Shown here: piece by piece, positions 3,301 to 24,243 of the stretch
Numbering within the stretch: the stretch's first letter is position 1
How the letters are laid out: each line of letters starts with the position of its first letter
DNA from: a virus
Length of the DNA stretch: 27,018 bases
IMG/VR virus record: IMGVR_UViG_3300012356_000005
Coordinates: 1-27,018 of that record
Direction: 5' to 3' (one strand)
The notes under the pieces: generated by a model
Database searches by the model: none
Seen by the model: the letters and a program-made list of their open reading frames with translations, nothing else
Told to the model about the DNA's origin: nothing
Program-made: the position numbers and the translations under genes

Positions 3301-3434
3301 AGAACAAGATGCATCCGACCCCCGCCGGCGCGGCGCGTAAAAAGGTGATCGTGTACTCGGCGAGCGGTGCAGTGCTCCGGTCGAAGACGTGGAACGTCAA
3401 GAAGCTGTCGTCGAAGAAGATGAAGAAGTCCTAA
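3297..3434 (+). CDS. Very small basic protein
   Basis: 45 residues from ATG 3297, overlapping the previous stop. The sequence starts MKNKMHPTPAGAARKKVIVY and ends with a Lys/Ser-rich tail. It is the last member of the chain of tiny overlapping genes. Its 3' end overlaps the 3' end of the minus-strand endonuclease gene by 38 bases (3397-3434). Support is gene spacing and start overlap, not homology. Confidence 0.45.
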   Translation: MKNKMHPTPAGAARKKVIVYSASGAVLRSKTWNVKKLSSKKMKKS

Positions 3435-3975
3435 GCGCGGCTGCCTGTTTCTTTCTTCCGGCCACGAGGGCAGCGAGATGTTCGGTCGTCAGTTTACCCG
3501 GCTTGATCCCGCGTGGCCGCTTGATTCCTGCCCGCATCTTGTTCATGTGAGCTTTGCGCTGTGCCTTCGTCTTTCTCTTCCATGCCTTTTTGCCCCCGAG
3601 CGAAGAGGCTGTGCTATCTTGCAATGCGCGACCTTGCCGACCCGCTTCTTGCCTCTGAAGAAGCGTCGTGTTCTCTATCAAGTTGCGGCGGCCTATCTCT
3701 TGGTTGGTTGCATTGACGACGTCGACGCAGCGTTTGCGCAACGCAAGTATGGCACGATCTTCCCATTCGCGTATCTTCCTTCGAGTACCGTGCGGAAGAT
3801 CGATGGCGATCTCAAGGATGCAACCGAGCTGTAGCGCAGGACGGTGCGCCCCGTAGCGGTTTCCGAAGTCCGTGGTCGATCCCACATATACGCGAGACCG
3901 ATCCGGCAACCAAAGACCGTAGACGCAGCAAGTCAGATGAGCCAGTTCGGTAGGCAGTTTGTACTTGTTCTTCAC
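3397..3975 (-). CDS. GIY-YIG homing endonuclease
   Basis: A minus-strand gene inside a plus-strand block. The nuclease core is visible: CVYGLW (GIY position), RVYVGST (YIG position), then Arg and His in GNRYGAHR, Glu in IREWEDRAIL and Asn in VVNATN, so the catalytic set looks intact. The C-terminal part is Lys/Arg-rich, with GIKPGKLTTEHLAALVAGRK as a likely DNA-contact segment. I prefer GTG 3975 (192 residues) because AAGAG lies a suitable distance upstream. GTG 3981 (194 residues) is possible but too close to that site. The region is more A+T-rich than its neighbours, in keeping with insertion of a mobile gene. Such enzymes nick or cut DNA to spread their own gene. Confidence 0.85.
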   Translation of the reverse strand: MKNKYKLPTELAHLTCCVYGLWLPDRSRVYVGSTTDFGNRYGAHRPALQLGCILEIAIDLPHGTRRKIREWEDRAILALRKRCVDVVNATNQEIGRRNLIENTTLLQRQEAGRQGRALQDSTASSLGGKKAWKRKTKAQRKAHMNKMRAGIKRPRGIKPGKLTTEHLAALVAGRKKQAAALRTSSSSSTTAS

Positions 3976-4007
3976 TATCACATCTCTTGTTGTGGATACT
4001 TAAATAT
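3971..4007 (+). promoter_or_regulatory. Possible promoter (weaker relative of the repeated motif) before the portal
   Basis: GTGGATACTTAAATAT at 3992-4007 matches GTGGTATCTTACATAT at 9532-9547 at 12 of 16 positions. TTCACT at 3971-3976 is a possible -35 with an 18-base spacer to GATACT (3995-4000). It overlaps the start of the endonuclease gene and lies about 110 bases before the portal ATG. The A+T-rich stretch could also hold the minus-strand promoter. Evidence is similarity only. Confidence 0.3.
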
Positions 4008-4114
4008 AAGTCGCCGCTACGAGTAAGTCAAGCGGCGCCTCGTGCGTCAGAGAGCACCTCGGTGCTGACCCCGTGATCGTAACCGACGAGCAATAGGGAG
4101 GACCAAACAAGAAC
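3982..4114. other. Divergent intergenic region between endonuclease and portal
   Basis: 133 bases with no gene. The left third is A+T-rich and promoter-like for both directions. A hairpin, AGCACC-TC-GGTGCT, sits at 4053-4066. AGGGAGGA at about 4095-4102 is a strong ribosome binding site with a slightly long 12-base gap to ATG 4115. I see no tRNA and no clear intron core. Confidence 0.5.
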
Positions 4115-5989
4115 ATGTCGCTATTCTCTACCAGTTACACAGACCCGATTGCTGGGGCAGGTGGAGTCGACTTGTTCCTGTAAGTTCCGGCGGGATCCAA
4201 TCTCTATGGTACGCCTAACTTACTAGGACTTCCGTCCGCTGTCATCAAGCCCCAGACCTGGCTGGATTTTCATCCGCCGGTCTACCTTCGTGACATCGTG
4301 AAGTGGGCCTATGCCCGGGATCACTACACCGGTGAGTGCGCGAACCTCCGCAAGATCACGCACTACCTGATCCGCAAAGGCATCGGAGAAACACTAGAGC
4401 AGTTCCAGGAGCGCGTAGCGCTGGCGGACTACACGCCGCACTTCGCGCACATCGTGGACTCGCTGGCCGGCATGCTCTTCGGTATCGAAGTCGATGCGAA
4501 CCGCGACATGGGATCGCTCGGCGATGAAACGCATCGCGATACGCCCGCAGGCCACCTGTGGATTAACGCAGACGGCGATCGAAACGGCTACCAGACGATC
4601 TGGAAGGTCCTGACGACCGAGTTGATTGCGATCCACGATACGTGGATTTTCGTCGATGGCGGCGAGGACGGTCGGTACCCAAAGATCCGCCTGATTCAAG
4701 CCGAAGCCGTGACGAACTGGCGCTACGAGAACGGCATCCTGGTTGAGGCAGTGATACGCGAGGTCTTGGATCAGCGCACGAGTCTCGACGATGATCCAAA
4801 GAAGGCCGCCGCGCAGTACCTGTACATGACGACCGAGGGCTGGCAGCGCTGGGAGAAGCAGCAGGCCTCGACGAACCCGACGTCCGCGAATCCCGCGGAC
4901 ACGAGCACGCCGGGTCGCGAGATCGCCGTACCGCTTGGCGAAATGACATCATGGCAGTACTTCACGACCAATGGGGAGCGGACGATTCCGCTGATCCCAG
5001 TGTCGCTGGCGCTTCGCCGGCACGTGGGCTACATGCTCGCGCGCAAAGCGAACGTCATCTTCAACAAAGAATCTGAGCGCGACTCGCTGCTGCGTCACTG
5101 CACGTTCCCGCTACTGAACGTTCATGGCTCGGATACGCACTTCAAGAAGGTCACGGATGCGCTTCGCCGTGGCTCCCGCGCGCTTCAGGTACCACCTGGT
5201 GGAACCCCGCACGGATTCATCGCTCCATCGCCTGCGCCGGCGCAGGAGCTGCAGAGCGCGCTCGACAAGAAGACGAATGATCTGTACATCACGGGCTTCC
5301 GTGAGTACGGCGGTGCCGCGCAGCGCTCGCAGGGAAACGCCAAGACCGCGCTCGAAGTCCGATACGATGTACAGACCGGCGTGGCGGCCTTCCTGCAGAT
5401 GCTGAAGAGCGCCATCGACGACGCTGAGAACGCGACGCTCTATCTCCTGGAGCAGACGCTCTTCCCGAACAACCGCGCTAAGTGGGGCACGGCGCACGTA
5501 GAGCGCTCGGACGACTTCGTGCCGTTCGACATCAATGAGGTGCTGGAGCGCCTGCACAGCCGATACTTTGGGAAGACCACCAACGTTCCGATTGGCCGGA
5601 CGGCCCGGATCGAGGTTGCGAAGCGGATTGTTGAGTGGGACGGCCTGCCCGTCGACGAGGACGAGATTGCCGCCGACATCGACAACGCAGCGCTCTTCGC
5701 TGCGCTGCAGACCGTCACCGCGCTCTCTCCGGATATTCCGCCCGAGGCGAAGGCCGAGATGGTCGTTCGGATCCTCAGCTCGCTCGGATACTTCGATTCA
5801 TCGGATGGCGTGATCGGCAAGGATGGCAAACCGAAGAATCCGCTCAACGTTGAAAAGGTCCGTGCAGCGGCGCTCAAGCTCGCCTCAGAGCCCCCTGCTG
5901 GCCCAGCAGGGTCGGCCGGTGGGAAGGCTCCTCCGCAAGCACCAGAAGGTCATCAAACCCCGGCTGCGCCGGGAAGTAAGGGGGCCTAA
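4115..5989 (+). CDS. Portal protein (DUF4055-type), frame interrupted by TAA at codon 23
   Basis: The portal forms the ring at the head vertex through which DNA passes. From 4271 the protein fits DUF4055-type portals: VYLRDIVKWAYARDHYTGE, then FAHIVDSLAGMLFG, VIFNKESERDSLLRHCTFPL and SQGNAKTALEVRYDVQTGVA, with a Pro/Ala-rich tail. The only good start is ATG 4115, with AGGGAGGA upstream. That frame meets TAA at 4181-4183 after 22 codons and then stays open to 5989 (624 codons in all). After the TAA there is no ATG, GTG or TTG until GTG 4298. That GTG has no ribosome binding site and would remove conserved N-terminal sequence. So either the stop is read through or bypassed, or the gene is damaged. 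A conservative call is 4298-5989 (563 residues). Confidence 0.82.
4181..4183 (+). other. In-frame TAA inside portal gene (possible recoding site)
   Basis: Context is GAC TTG TTC CTG TAA GTT CCG. The preceding 22 codons have a strong ribosome binding site, and the following frame leads without a stop into the portal. The same TTC CTG TAR context occurs at 14320-14328 in another structural gene. Confidence 0.6.
5893..5973 (+). other. Two strong hairpins at the 3' end of the portal gene
   Basis: CCCTGCTGG and CCAGCAGGG flank a single C at 5893-5911. CCCGGC-TGC-GCCGGG lies at 5959-5973. Both are inside the Pro/Ala/Gly-rich coding tail just before the next gene. Neither is followed by a T-run, so they are not classic terminators; they may stabilise or tune the mRNA. 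Confidence 0.4.
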
Positions 5990-13775: not shown

Positions 13776-14135
13776 GTGACCAAGCCGACGGGCAAAGGTC
13801 GTGGATTCAATCGTCGTGGCATGGAGAGTCCGCGTACGCAGCACGCTACACGGAGTCCCACCATTCGAGATTTGGAATGGGCCGCTGGATTCGTTGAAGG
13901 AGAAGCTTCCTTTCAGAACCAGGCGGGCTCGCCGACGATGCATGCCCCACAGGTGAATCGAGAGCCGTTGGTGCGCATGCTGGTGCTCTTCGGTGGCACT
14001 ATCGATCCGCCGCGCAAGGTTGGTAGTCCGACGAGTTGCTGGCGCATCAGCGGCGCCCGTGCTCGCGGCGTCATGCTCACTCTCTATCCGCTGTTATCCG
14101 AGAAGCGGAAACAACAGATTCTGGCCTGCGTGTAG
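13776..14135 (+). CDS. LAGLIDADG-like homing endonuclease domain protein
   Basis: 119 residues. LEWAAGFVEGEASFQ is a single LAGLIDADG-type motif (helix followed by the acidic Glu-Gly-Glu). Then PQVNREPLVRMLVLFGG and WRISGARARGVMLTLYPLLS follow the order of this fold. Such small single-motif proteins act as dimers when active and are frequent in phage genomes. GTG 13776 is 5 bases after the previous stop and has no strong site; ATG 13821 is an alternative. It sits just upstream of a structural gene with an in-frame TAG, as the GIY-YIG gene does for the portal. Activity is not certain. Confidence 0.65.
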   Translation: MTKPTGKGRGFNRRGMESPRTQHATRSPTIRDLEWAAGFVEGEASFQNQAGSPTMHAPQVNREPLVRMLVLFGGTIDPPRKVGSPTSCWRISGARARGVMLTLYPLLSEKRKQQILACV

Positions 14136-14175: not shown

Positions 14176-14709
14176 ATGGCGACGACGTATTTCGATCCAG
14201 CAAGCGCCGGTGACAGGAATCTATTGCCACCGGGCATGCGAAGCGACGCAGAACTGGCTAACGTAGCAGCGCTGTCGGAAGTGGACGTGATTGGGTACTA
14301 CACACAGGACCCCGCCTACTTCCTGTAGCTTTACACGAACCAGCTTGGCCTGCAGGGCTTCTTCGATGCCACATTCGGCGTCGGTGAAGATGTAACGAAC
14401 CAAGGTGCACCGGCCAACGCCGTCGTACCGCAGCTCCGCGTGTTCCTGCGTGGGTACAAAGCTGACGCCTCGGATCCCGCTGTGGATCCGAATCTGAAGC
14501 TCGCGCTCAAGCGCGCGATCGCGGAAGTCATCGCGTGGCGCTTGAACCAGTGGAAGTCCATCGAGCCTGGCGTCGAGGCATCCTCCGGCACCGATGGCGG
14601 CGTGCCGAAGAGCAAGAAGTTCCGGGCGACGGCAGAGGATCGCTATCCGCCCGACTGGACCCGTTGGCTATATGCCTTCGATTCACGTCCCGTGCTGTGG
14701 GGATGGTGA
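14176..14709 (+). CDS. Probable neck (head-tail connector) protein, interrupted by TAG at codon 51
   Basis: ATG 14176 has AGGA a few bases upstream. The first 50 codons (MATTYFDPASAGDRNLLPPG up to DPAYFL) look coding, with about two thirds G/C in third position. They then meet TAG at 14326-14328. The same frame continues open for 127 codons, with LRVFLRGYKADASDP and VIAWRLNQWKSIEPG, to the TGA at 14709. After the TAG the first start is GTG 14440, with no ribosome binding site. The intact product would be about 177 residues. Position between head genes and tail completion genes suggests a connector; no family is recognised. Readthrough, bypass or a disrupted gene are the options. A conservative call is 14440-14709. 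Confidence 0.6.
14326..14328 (+). other. In-frame TAG inside neck gene (possible recoding site)
   Basis: Context is GCC TAC TTC CTG TAG CTT TAC. The six bases before the stop, TTCCTG, are the same as before the TAA at 4181. A downstream C after TAG is a known leaky context. In both genes a Tyr codon (TAC) in place of the stop would give FLY. Confidence 0.6.
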
Positions 14710-14713
14710 CGAC

Positions 14714-14965
14714 ATGGACGTATGGGATGACAGCCAGCCCGATGGCCCCGAGCCCGAGCCGTGGAAGAAGCAGCCCCAACCGCCCCGACAGGATGTAACC
14801 CCGAGCGGACAACCGCACGGTTACTTCGAACCGAGCAAGTACTCGCTACTCGATTCAGATGCCCTACGGCGCCAGAAGCACTACCATCGACTCCTAGCCG
14901 ATAGCATGACGCCGCATCCGCTGTGGTGGAAGCGCCTGATGGCCTTCCTAGGGCGTGGCGTATGA
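14714..14965 (+). CDS. Small Pro-rich hypothetical protein
   Basis: 83 residues from ATG 14714. The N-terminal half is Pro/Gln/Asp-rich (PDGPEPEPWKKQPQPPRQ), the C-terminal half basic and helical (LRRQKHYHRLLADSM, WWKRLMAFLGRG). The frame is open upstream to 14594 only as a shadow of the previous gene. Its stop overlaps the next start (ATGA at 14962-14965). Not recognised; likely a small neck or assembly component by position. Confidence 0.5.
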   Translation: MDVWDDSQPDGPEPEPWKKQPQPPRQDVTPSGQPHGYFEPSKYSLLDSDALRRQKHYHRLLADSMTPHPLWWKRLMAFLGRGV

Positions 14966-15495
14966 TGGACACATCGCCGCTCGACTACACGTACGTGCTC
15001 ATGGGCAACCTGACGAATCAAGTCCGTGATCTCTTCACGCGGATATTCGAGTCAGAGGGCTCAGAGGCCGGCGAGGCATGGGAGCCGTTATCCCCTGCTA
15101 CCGAAGCCCGAAAATTGCGACTCGGGCTCAGTTCCGCGATCCTCGTAGCCGAGGACGACCTCCGACGCTCCCTAGCATTCGGGACGGGAGGCGGATACGC
15201 TGAGCTGCGCGATGAGCATACACTGGCAGTCGGTACCGATGACCCAGCAGGACCGTTTCATCAGCTCGGAACGCGTCGGATGCCGCAACGAAAAATTGCG
15301 CCCGATGCATCTGACATTCCACAGGCGGAGACCACGGACTGGTCGAACATCGCCGGTCAGCATGCTAAGGGACAGATCGGGAAGCGACTAATGGATGCCT
15401 TCGGCGAGCTGAAGCGCTTCGAAGAGGGCGCCGAGGGCGCGATCGAATTGGTCCTAGAGGACCTGGCAGAACTCGCGGAGGTCTTGGTCATATGA
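14962..15495 (+). CDS. Phage virion morphogenesis (tail completion) protein
   Basis: 177 residues from ATG 14962, overlapping the previous stop; the in-frame GTG at 14923 lies in the previous gene. The sequence EAWEPLSPATEARKLRLG, then LRRSLAFGTGGGYAEL and the region GPFHQLGTRRMPQRK, fits the phage virion morphogenesis family (gpS/gpG-like), which acts in tail completion and head-tail joining. In this family a WxPLs-T followed by a HQ-G-R-MPxR motif is characteristic. The last 30 residues are acidic and helical. It ends as ATGA with the next gene. Confidence 0.78.
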   Translation: MMDTSPLDYTYVLMGNLTNQVRDLFTRIFESEGSEAGEAWEPLSPATEARKLRLGLSSAILVAEDDLRRSLAFGTGGGYAELRDEHTLAVGTDDPAGPFHQLGTRRMPQRKIAPDASDIPQAETTDWSNIAGQHAKGQIGKRLMDAFGELKRFEEGAEGAIELVLEDLAELAEVLVI

Positions 15496-17379: not shown

Positions 17380-17859
17380 ATGTTCGACGCACAAGCCTAC
17401 CTAACCACACTTGAACCTCCCGTGTACATCGATCGCGCAGGTAAGAAGCATACGGGACGCGTGCTCGGTGCGGATCAGTGGCTGATGTTCCAGCACTCTC
17501 TTCGCGCTTCAGACAACGTCGATCGCATACTTCAGCGCATCGTTGCGCACATCTTTCCCCATCCGTGGTGGAAGATCTGGCGCCACTCTGTGCGGTGGGA
17601 CATATGGCAACTGCCGCCGATTGGACGGATGCGAGCCGTGTGGAATTTTATGCAGTCCCAGGCGAAGGCGATGGGCGTCTCCTTCCCTGGGACATTCCCG
17701 ACGCTGCAGCCGCCGCTCGACTCGATGGCCGTCCCGTCGCCCGACTCCCCGACACCTGGCTACTCGCAAAGTTCCATCAGCGATACCCAGGGCTTTACTA
17801 TAAGTGGGGCGCCGGCTGGCACACCACCGATGGAACCATCCCCCACCGTCTATTCTTAA
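17380..17859 (+). CDS. Tail assembly chaperone, first frame (gpG-like)
   Basis: 159 residues, ATG 17380 with AGGAG at 17367-17371. It lies directly before the tape measure, where siphoviruses encode a pair of overlapping chaperone genes. The N-terminal 90 residues (PPVYIDRAGKKHTGRVLGA, LQRIVAHIFPHPWWKIW) look well ordered; the end (SPDSPTPGYSQSS) looks like a frame past its functional end. A second frame overlaps, open to 18023. G/C in third position supports this frame to about 17755. Role: chaperone for the tape measure, inferred from context. Confidence 0.7.
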   Translation: MFDAQAYLTTLEPPVYIDRAGKKHTGRVLGADQWLMFQHSLRASDNVDRILQRIVAHIFPHPWWKIWRHSVRWDIWQLPPIGRMRAVWNFMQSQAKAMGVSFPGTFPTLQPPLDSMAVPSPDSPTPGYSQSSISDTQGFTISGAPAGTPPMEPSPTVYS

Positions 17860-18023
17860 TGCTATTGGGCGGGATCGAGGTCCTCGAAGCTGGTGACAGC
17901 GTTCGTGCAGCAAACAGCGCGGCCTTGGGACAGGCGCTGGCAACGGCTGGTGACACGCCCTCCGTGCAGCGCGTGATGGCACAGATGATTCGAACCGCTT
18001 ACCCTGAACGATACGACGACTAA
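17604..18023 (+). CDS. Tail assembly chaperone, second frame (gpT-like extension, -1 frame)
   Basis: The frame is -1 relative to the first chaperone and runs to TAA 18023. The convincing part starts near KFHQRYPGLYYKWGAGWHTT (about 17770) and ends AQMIRTAYPERYDD. It is most likely made by -1 frameshifting. In-frame starts at ATG 17604 (weak GGTGGGA) and ATG 17859 (TAATG overlap with the first stop, giving 54 residues) are alternatives. I find no canonical X XXY YYZ heptamer in register; the best candidate is the T-run in AATTTTA at 17644-17650. The next gene starts right after its stop (TAAATG). Confidence 0.55.
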   Translation: MATAADWTDASRVEFYAVPGEGDGRLLPWDIPDAAAAARLDGRPVARLPDTWLLAKFHQRYPGLYYKWGAGWHTTDGTIPHRLFLMLLGGIEVLEAGDSVRAANSAALGQALATAGDTPSVQRVMAQMIRTAYPERYDD

Positions 18024-22122: not shown

Positions 22123-24243
22123 ATGACCGCTATCTCCTGGGTTCTCTCGACCGATCGCTTCGTGGGCCGCAACAACGCGGTCTACGCGGACGTGCTCAAC
22201 CGTCCGCTGCGCGCGCTCCTCACGCAGTGGGGATACGACCCGGACGGCACGGACTTCTCGATGCCGACCGTCTATGCGCACACGTTCGCGGGCGCGAACG
22301 GTGGTCTCAAGATCCAGGCCGCCATCACGGCGGTCGCAGCGGCGGGGGGTGGGGTCGTGGACTGTCAGGGTCTTACCGGCGCGCAGACGTTGGACGTCAA
22401 CCTCTTCGCCAACGTGACGTCTGAGACGCCGTTGAAACTAATCTTCGGCGCATCAATCTGGACCGTGGCGACGACCGGTTCCCAGCAGCCCTGGGGCAAG
22501 CTGACCGTCGCGCTGAACAACACGACGTTCGTCCTCGCGGACGGCACCGTGGCCTGGTTCCTCTGGGACTTCAGTGTACATGTAGCGGGAGGCTCCGCCG
22601 TCGTGACCAACGGCTCAGCGGACATCACGATATCAGTCGTTCCGTCCGGCGTTCCGCTGGACGTCGGTCGTGCCATCTCGATCTTCGGACACCTGGCGGA
22701 GCACGGCGGGCGAGACAACTCGACGCTGAGCGCTGATATCACGTCGACGCAGACGACGATCGCGTTGGTCTCAACGACGGGACTAGCGAATGGGCATTAC
22801 ATAAAGATGGAGAACGAGATCTGTCGCATAGGCACCGTGGACAGTGCCACGCAGATCTCCGGGTGCATCCGTGGGGACCAGGGAACCGTTAACGCTTCTC
22901 ACCTTAGCGGCGTTGCAACCGATCGGGTCGTCTACCAGAGCTACGAGATCAAGGCGGTCAACGGCTCGATCGTGACGCTTGACGAGCCGTTCGCCGGAAT
23001 ATCTAGCACCGGGACGCGCAGCCTGAAGGTGGGACCGCGTGACGTATCCTTCGAGGGCGTCGGGACATTTGACGGCAGCAAGCCTCCCACCAACTCACCC
23101 AACAACGCCGGATGCATCGGCTTCTACAATGGGACCAACCTTAAGGTCGCTCGGACCATCACCATCAAGTCCTGGGATCACATCGGAGTGTTCACACGGC
23201 AGGCACGCCATGCGGAGGTCGACGGCACGTATCGCGACATGGGCTGGCCCCTAGAAGCGCTCGGATTCTCCGTTATATTCATGCATGGGTCGAAACACTG
23301 CACGGCCTACGGGGAGTACGAGAACTGCAACTACGGCCCCGCGACCGATGACCGGACCACCTCACCATCGATCGATGACAACGCCACGGTGGGGTGTGTC
23401 CTTAAGCCCCGCAGCATCCGTCACGTTCACGGCGGCGTGATCTCCGAGGGCTCGATCAACTGCTACGCTGACGTTCCCTACGTCTTTGATTGGGGCTTGG
23501 GCGGCAGCGGGTTCGCACTTTCGATGACGGGCTCGCCGCAGTGGGTCACGTCACCGACGATCGTTGGCCAGGTTGGCCTCCTGGGCTACGCCTCGCCAGC
23601 CGCCAACGCGGTCCTGATCAGCGGAACACCGAGTGACGGGTGCGTGGTCGTCTACCGAAACAGCGCCGGGACTGTTAGCGGCACGCTGCCGAACGGCGTA
23701 CACGTTGTGGGAGCCTCGATCACGGTCAAGGTCGCTGGCACGACGCGGTTTAGTCTTCCCATCAGCGGCCCGATCACCTTTGGCGACTCGGTCGCGGTGA
23801 CCGGCAATTTCACGGCCACCGGCACCATCGGCGTCATCGGGGGCGTCGGGGCGACGCTCGGAGGCGGCGGCCAAGCCAAACTAAACCTGGACGGCGTGGC
23901 GGCCACGTTCGCTGCGGGCGAGATGGGAATCGGTGCGAGCGTCGGCAACATGAACTATTACGCCCGGGGGTCACATAATTTGGGGAACGCTACCACGGGT
24001 ATCACCCAATTCAGCATCTCGAACGCTGGCATCATTAATGCGGTCACGGGAAATTACCGTGTGGCTGGCGTCGACGTCGTCAAGACGCGTAAGACGGGCT
24101 ACACGAACCTCATGACCGGCACGGCCAACCGCGCCACGGCGTACGACACATCAACGATCACCCTCGTCCAACTCGCCGAGCGCGTCAAGGCGATCGAGGA
24201 CGACCTCCACGCCACGGCCGGACACGGCCTGATCGGAGTCTAA
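22123..24243 (+). CDS. Second tailspike/fibre protein
   Basis: 706 residues. The N-terminal 40 residues (SWVLSTDRFVGRNNAVYADV, NRPLRALL) match those of the preceding gene. Then comes a beta-helix-like middle (GGLKIQAAITAVAAAGGGVV, VSFEGVGTFDGS, ARTITIKSWDHIG) and a C-terminal part ending RVKAIEDDLHATAGHGLIG. Such an ending (ATAYDTSTITLVQLAERVKA) is common in phage fibres. Other inserted parts (LADGTVAWFLWDFSV) suggest a composite protein. It is probably a second receptor-binding protein carried on the same attachment site. Catalytic residues are not identified. Confidence 0.7.
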   Translation: MTAISWVLSTDRFVGRNNAVYADVLNRPLRALLTQWGYDPDGTDFSMPTVYAHTFAGANGGLKIQAAITAVAAAGGGVVDCQGLTGAQTLDVNLFANVTSETPLKLIFGASIWTVATTGSQQPWGKLTVALNNTTFVLADGTVAWFLWDFSVHVAGGSAVVTNGSADITISVVPSGVPLDVGRAISIFGHLAEHGGRDNSTLSADITSTQTTIALVSTTGLANGHYIKMENEICRIGTVDSATQISGCIRGDQGTVNASHLSGVATDRVVYQSYEIKAVNGSIVTLDEPFAGISSTGTRSLKVGPRDVSFEGVGTFDGSKPPTNSPNNAGCIGFYNGTNLKVARTITIKSWDHIGVFTRQARHAEVDGTYRDMGWPLEALGFSVIFMHGSKHCTAYGEYENCNYGPATDDRTTSPSIDDNATVGCVLKPRSIRHVHGGVISEGSINCYADVPYVFDWGLGGSGFALSMTGSPQWVTSPTIVGQVGLLGYASPAANAVLISGTPSDGCVVVYRNSAGTVSGTLPNGVHVVGASITVKVAGTTRFSLPISGPITFGDSVAVTGNFTATGTIGVIGGVGATLGGGGQAKLNLDGVAATFAAGEMGIGASVGNMNYYARGSHNLGNATTGITQFSISNAGIINAVTGNYRVAGVDVVKTRKTGYTNLMTGTANRATAYDTSTITLVQLAERVKAIEDDLHATAGHGLIGV

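Follow-up and report, generated by a model that had tools for sequence, protein, structure and literature searches.

The portal gene of an uncultured virus and a second conserved gene of its head-tail block (g2) are each interrupted by an in-frame stop codon, TAA and TAG respectively, in the shared context TTC CTG TAR STT, and an endonuclease-like ORF stands immediately 5' of each gene (Table 1). The sequence analyzed (the window, 27,018 nucleotides) is an IMG/VR virus fragment carrying a head-tail gene block. The reading we favor, with a probability of roughly 0.4, is that both TAR stops are decoded past in a context-specific manner; a lesion or an error in the consensus comes close to it in probability.

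Table 1. Features of the two interrupted genes and their upstream neighbors in the window.
Feature	Position	Strand	Evidence or remark
GIY-YIG endonuclease-like ORF directly upstream of portal	3397..3981	-	PF01541 E = 0.0036, below cut-off
Shine-Dalgarno-like AGGGAGGA	4095..4102	+	sequence; spacer to ATG 4115 of 12 nt, longer than usual
Portal 5' frame, 22 codons, MSLFSTSYTDPIAGAGGVDLFL	4115..4180	+	conserved with closest relative's TDPISGAGGIDLFL
In-frame TAA	4181..4183	+	context TTC CTG TAA GTT
Portal body, 601 open codons, PHROG 145 / DUF4055	4184..5989	+	profile matches
Homing-endonuclease-like ORF directly upstream of g2	13776..14135	+	PHROG 5046 "HNH endonuclease", E = 1.6e-7
g2 first 50 codons (MATTYFD...DPAYFL)	14176..14325	+	conserved in further relatives; pN/pS 0.23, P = 5e-7
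g2 in-frame TAG	14326..14328	+	context TTC CTG TAG CTT, within 6-nt insertion
g2 remainder (LYTNQLGLQGFF... to TGA)	14329..14709	+	no canonical start before GTG 14440

The portal frame opens at ATG 4115, runs for 22 codons to the TAA at 4181-4183 and continues for 601 sense codons to a TAA at 5987-5989, as a preliminary description of the window had reported. Residues 32-424 of the portal body match the PHROG 145 profile (E = 8.6e-29), and DUF4055 (PF13264) is matched at E = 2e-4 with 21.9 bits, below the family cut-off of 25; judged by these profiles, the protein is a PHROG 145 / DUF4055 portal. An AlphaFold model of the portal was of too poor quality and was left out of the reasoning. The portal frame holds no ATG, GTG or TTG between the TAA and GTG 4298, and no well-placed ribosome-binding site follows the TAA. 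GTG 4298 itself falls after conserved sequence, since residues W48, L49 and Y56 (relative's numbering), invariant across seven homologues, precede it, in agreement with what had been claimed for this start.

Relatives were found through the capsid protein, a capsid-profile scan, and portal alignments with a portal-profile scan; single-sequence scans of viral and genome contigs with the window portal as query gave no matches, and tblastn against phage records gave nothing significant. The closest relative, reached through the capsid protein, is contig IMGVR_UViG_3300020004_000005 (L001/L013/L014), with 76% identity to the window in the capsid and 72% in the portal. Its whole portal 5' region is one intact frame from an ATG, with Gln (CAG) at the position of the TAA, which is the kind of homologue, bearing an amino acid where the window has the stop, that the preliminary description had proposed to look for. 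The relative reads MRSVTFATDFTDPISGAGGIDLFLQ, a three-residue gap and GSNLYGTQNILG, against MSLFSTSYTDPIAGAGGVDLFL, the stop and VPAGSNLYGTPNLLG in the window; around the stop, GIDLFLQ, the gap and GSNLYGT align with GVDLFL, the stop and VPAGSNLYGT. A length difference of 9 nt between the two sequences thus adjoins the TAA.

Both sides of the portal stop are constrained at the protein level. The pN/pS ratio is 0.25 for codons 5-22, before the stop (bootstrap 0.08-0.51, P = 0.003), 0.28 from the stop to GTG 4298 (P = 2e-4), and 0.35 in the body. The upstream 22 codons are therefore not noise, and the TAA interrupts sequence that was translated in-frame for most of the divergence of both viruses. 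Weaker codon bias near the stop had been read as ground for doubt: a lower GC3 is indeed present before 4240, but the portal of the intact relative has it too (0.50 before the stop position vs 0.88 in the body). It is thus characteristic of the start of the gene and does not argue against coding.

More distant portals, from the capsid-profile and portal-profile scans, are built differently. Those of L027, L097, L098, L099 and L101 start at or after the position matching the window TAA (for example, MARETSWLENEHPEY in L098 and MLYPYPLSAAVAAMTEALPGLYKPTTWLEY in L097), and the conserved start region aligns at residues 5-40 of two solved portals. Homologues beginning after 4183, which had been held to speak against an interrupted gene, thus exist in these five distant sequences, but the closest relative is not among them. 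The 22-codon N-terminal extension is common only to the window and its closest relative, and by these alignments it is dispensable for the portal fold in general. Because a complete portal core is possible without the 22 codons, the earlier statement that a complete portal is hard to obtain from a normal start goes too far where the core is concerned; the gap does lack a canonical start, however. The genes that lie upstream of the portal in the relatives were looked for in the window and not found, so the comparison does not identify the 22 codons as what is left of an upstream gene. The string CTGTAAGTT (window 4178-4186) also occurs at L027 1942-1950, directly before the L027 portal start, where its TAA is the stop of the preceding gene, followed by GTT ATG; the coincidence may be accidental or may be left over from an ancestral gene junction.

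The stop in g2 surfaced in a comparison of the whole window with the relative, in which six-frame matches were noisy except that to g2. This conserved gene (14176-14709) carries its in-frame TAG at 14326 and has the capsid gene on one side and a Neck1-like gene at 14923-15495 (PHROG 26) on the other. A family search gave no match of weight and a fold search no match; gene order suggests a role in the head-tail connector. MATTYFD...TQDPAYFL, the stop and LYTNQLGLQGFF... in the window align with ...TEDPAYF, a two-residue gap and LYTNQLGLQGFF... in the closest relative, making the junction YFL, stop, LYTNQ in the window against YF, gap, LYTNQ in the relatives. The 6 nt holding the TAG are absent from all compared relatives (L001, L027, L028, L040 and others). 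After the stop, pN/pS is 0.30 (P = 3e-9). Conservation of the N-terminal half extends to six further sequences (L097, L098, L027, L028, L040 and L099), and a downstream start would therefore be unable to give a complete g2 protein.

The two sites resemble each other closely. Across the whole window, on either strand, TTCCTGTA occurs at the two stop sites only; given one site, the chance of a second position sharing the preceding codon pair is 7e-4, a figure from which the post hoc choice has yet to be discounted. Each stop is located in a linker that varies by indels, that of g2 being a low-confidence loop in a modest structure model, and the portal and g2 bodies are otherwise intact. Predicted RNA stems can pair the stops and are no stronger than stems elsewhere in the window. 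A homologue of the ORF upstream of the portal stands beside the relative's portal as well (L013 12385-12804), with 39% identity and in the opposite orientation, and the place 5' of g2 is taken in the relative by an endonuclease VII-type gene unrelated to the window ORF (L014 2610-3020). With endonuclease genes at these places in both phages, the loci 5' of the portal and 5' of g2 are apparent homing hotspots.

Two other places in these genomes deserve mention. In the closest relative, a GIY-YIG-like ORF (L014 about 4246-4743; contig 23246-23743) directly follows the homologue of the window gene at 14923-15495, the C-terminal part of which differs. Before the tape-measure gene of the window, ORFs 17380-17859 and 17478-18023 overlap in different frames and are both conserved in L001; they look like the usual tail-assembly-chaperone frameshift pair.

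If the favored reading is right, the portal gene and g2 would each be one continuous coding sequence, with ribosomes passing TAR after TTC CTG. The one mechanism that fits both sites is context-dependent readthrough, which would add one residue per linker, most simply Gln: a single transition converts CAR to TAR, and Gln is what the relative carries at the portal site. For g2 there is an alternative, as CTG TAG CTT could allow a +6 "stop-hop" that would restore exactly the relative's protein. By analogy with T4 gene 60, the stop-bearing indels may have arisen with the neighboring homing endonucleases, perhaps as altered target sites, and they would be tolerated because the linkers are variable and the proteins are probably needed in few copies. 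Against decoding past the stops, the closest relative has neither stop, so that a recoding signal is not conserved, and UAA is generally the least leaky stop codon, which counts against readthrough at the portal. The portal also offers no matched landing codon for a hop, the predicted RNA structure at the stops is ordinary, and the window, though only a fragment, has no tRNA gene. The whole case comes from one consensus sequence, and its coincidences were spotted after the fact. The fuller proposition, that two structural-block genes carry homing-endonuclease-linked, stop-containing micro-inserts that are decoded past at TTC CTG TAR STT, as in-frame counterparts of T4 gene 60, is doubtful.

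The preliminary description had named recoding, suppression, and a lesion or assembly error; these are the right alternatives and all of them still stand. It missed the second stop at 14326. Without any recoding, this genome copy could be defective or a decaying prophage in which both stops are true nonsense mutations, or the metagenome consensus could have the wrong bases there, for example TAR in place of CAR twice. One substitution from a Gln codon would be enough at each site of this single uncultured contig, indels are common in both loops, so the adjoining length differences need no special cause, and all three stop codons end genes normally in the window. Such an account has to contend with the lack of any further visible lesion in about 8,000 codons, and with the shared 8-nt context, the tolerant linkers and the endonuclease ORFs beside both sites. 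Moreover, none of 118 homologous genes of other contigs (79 capsid, 39 portal) has an internal stop; nine flagged portal stops lie at ends of the matched region, outside the genes, and one flagged capsid match was a second, distant frame. With a second stop in the same context beside an endonuclease ORF, an error at one isolated base becomes a less likely cause, and decay of a prophage a less natural one. If the stops are not passed, the pattern of damage or misreading in this genome copy is a strange one.

It is quite unlikely that 4115-4183 is a short leader or the end of an upstream gene, with the portal translated separately from a non-canonical codon (e.g. ATC 4244 or ACG 4211). The product would resemble the distant portals that begin at or after the matching point, the L027 gene junction reads CTG TAA GTT ATG, the solved portals hold the conserved start region at residues 5-40, and initiation without a canonical start has a precedent in mycobacteriophage Corndog (PMC4351075). 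The absence of ATG, GTG, TTG and a well-placed ribosome-binding site past the TAA argues against it, as does the fused frame used by the closest relative; it would also leave g2 unexplained, in which the N-terminal half before the stop is conserved in every relative and no canonical start follows closely. A general sense reading of TAA and TAG by phage or host, through an alternative code or a strong suppressor tRNA, is scarcely credible. Both internal stops are TAR, so one ochre-type suppressor would serve, but TAA closes 12 genes and TAG 9, several of them followed by a next gene that is open in the same frame, so that general readthrough would fuse genes (221 codons are open after TAA 5989 and 519 after TAG 20561). 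No tRNA gene was found in the window, which is only a fragment. Global reassignment of TAA and TAG is excluded. Among candidates that were tried and rejected, a group I or other intron has no Rfam match and the extra sequence is only 6-9 nt, while compensating frameshifts would run into other frames that close within 45 nt. Selenocysteine or pyrrolysine does not suit two different stops, TAA and TAG, and a long gene-60-like bypass in the portal (CTG 4178 to CTC 4202 or CTA 4223) would skip the constrained GSNL or GSNLYGT.

Should the stops be real and passed, one phage would have natural in-frame recoding at two sites, with a connection to homing endonucleases. One could then test whether inserts that protect against endonucleases are commonly concealed by recoding, and it would be a caution that viral gene callers cut such genes short. 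If the stops are errors or lesions, they show how patterned such errors can look.

The precedents of T4 and mycobacteriophage Corndog back an endonuclease-linked reading by analogy and fall short of proof. T4 gene 60 is the well-documented case of a link between recoding and an endonuclease: an endonuclease gene split gene 39, and the downstream gene 60 has a bypassed insert of 50 nt that is possibly nuclease-protective (PMC5009743; PMC3014915). The window resembles T4 gene 60/mobA in that an endonuclease gene immediately precedes the affected gene (with a GIY-YIG-like score here that is below the Pfam cut-off), that the stop directly follows a sense codon no more than about 50 codons into the gene, and that relatives are uninterrupted (PMC5009743; PMC3014915). 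A lineage-specific insert is a further likeness at g2, whereas the 9-nt difference at the portal may be a gain in the window or a loss in the relative. It differs in that 6-9 nt in frame replace 50 nt, two genes are affected rather than one, and the case is known here from sequence alone. Where gene 60 has a stem-loop signal, the predicted stems here are ordinary. Where it has matched codons, g2 has CTG...CTT (synonymous Leu) and the portal has none that would preserve the conserved GSNLYGT; lacking a matched landing codon at the portal, the window is not classed as a gene 60-type bypass. The g2 site, CTG TAG CTT, is also like the synthetic stop-hops of E. coli, in which matched codons flank the stop, while the portal site is without such a match; a 2016 review knew of no natural in-frame stop-hop (PMC5009743). 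In Corndog-type phages, where peptides were measured, an HNH insertion precedes a tape-measure gene that is translated without a canonical start (PMC4351075). The oddity there is a missing start rather than an in-frame stop, and the likeness to the window is that an endonuclease has been inserted 5' of a structural gene.
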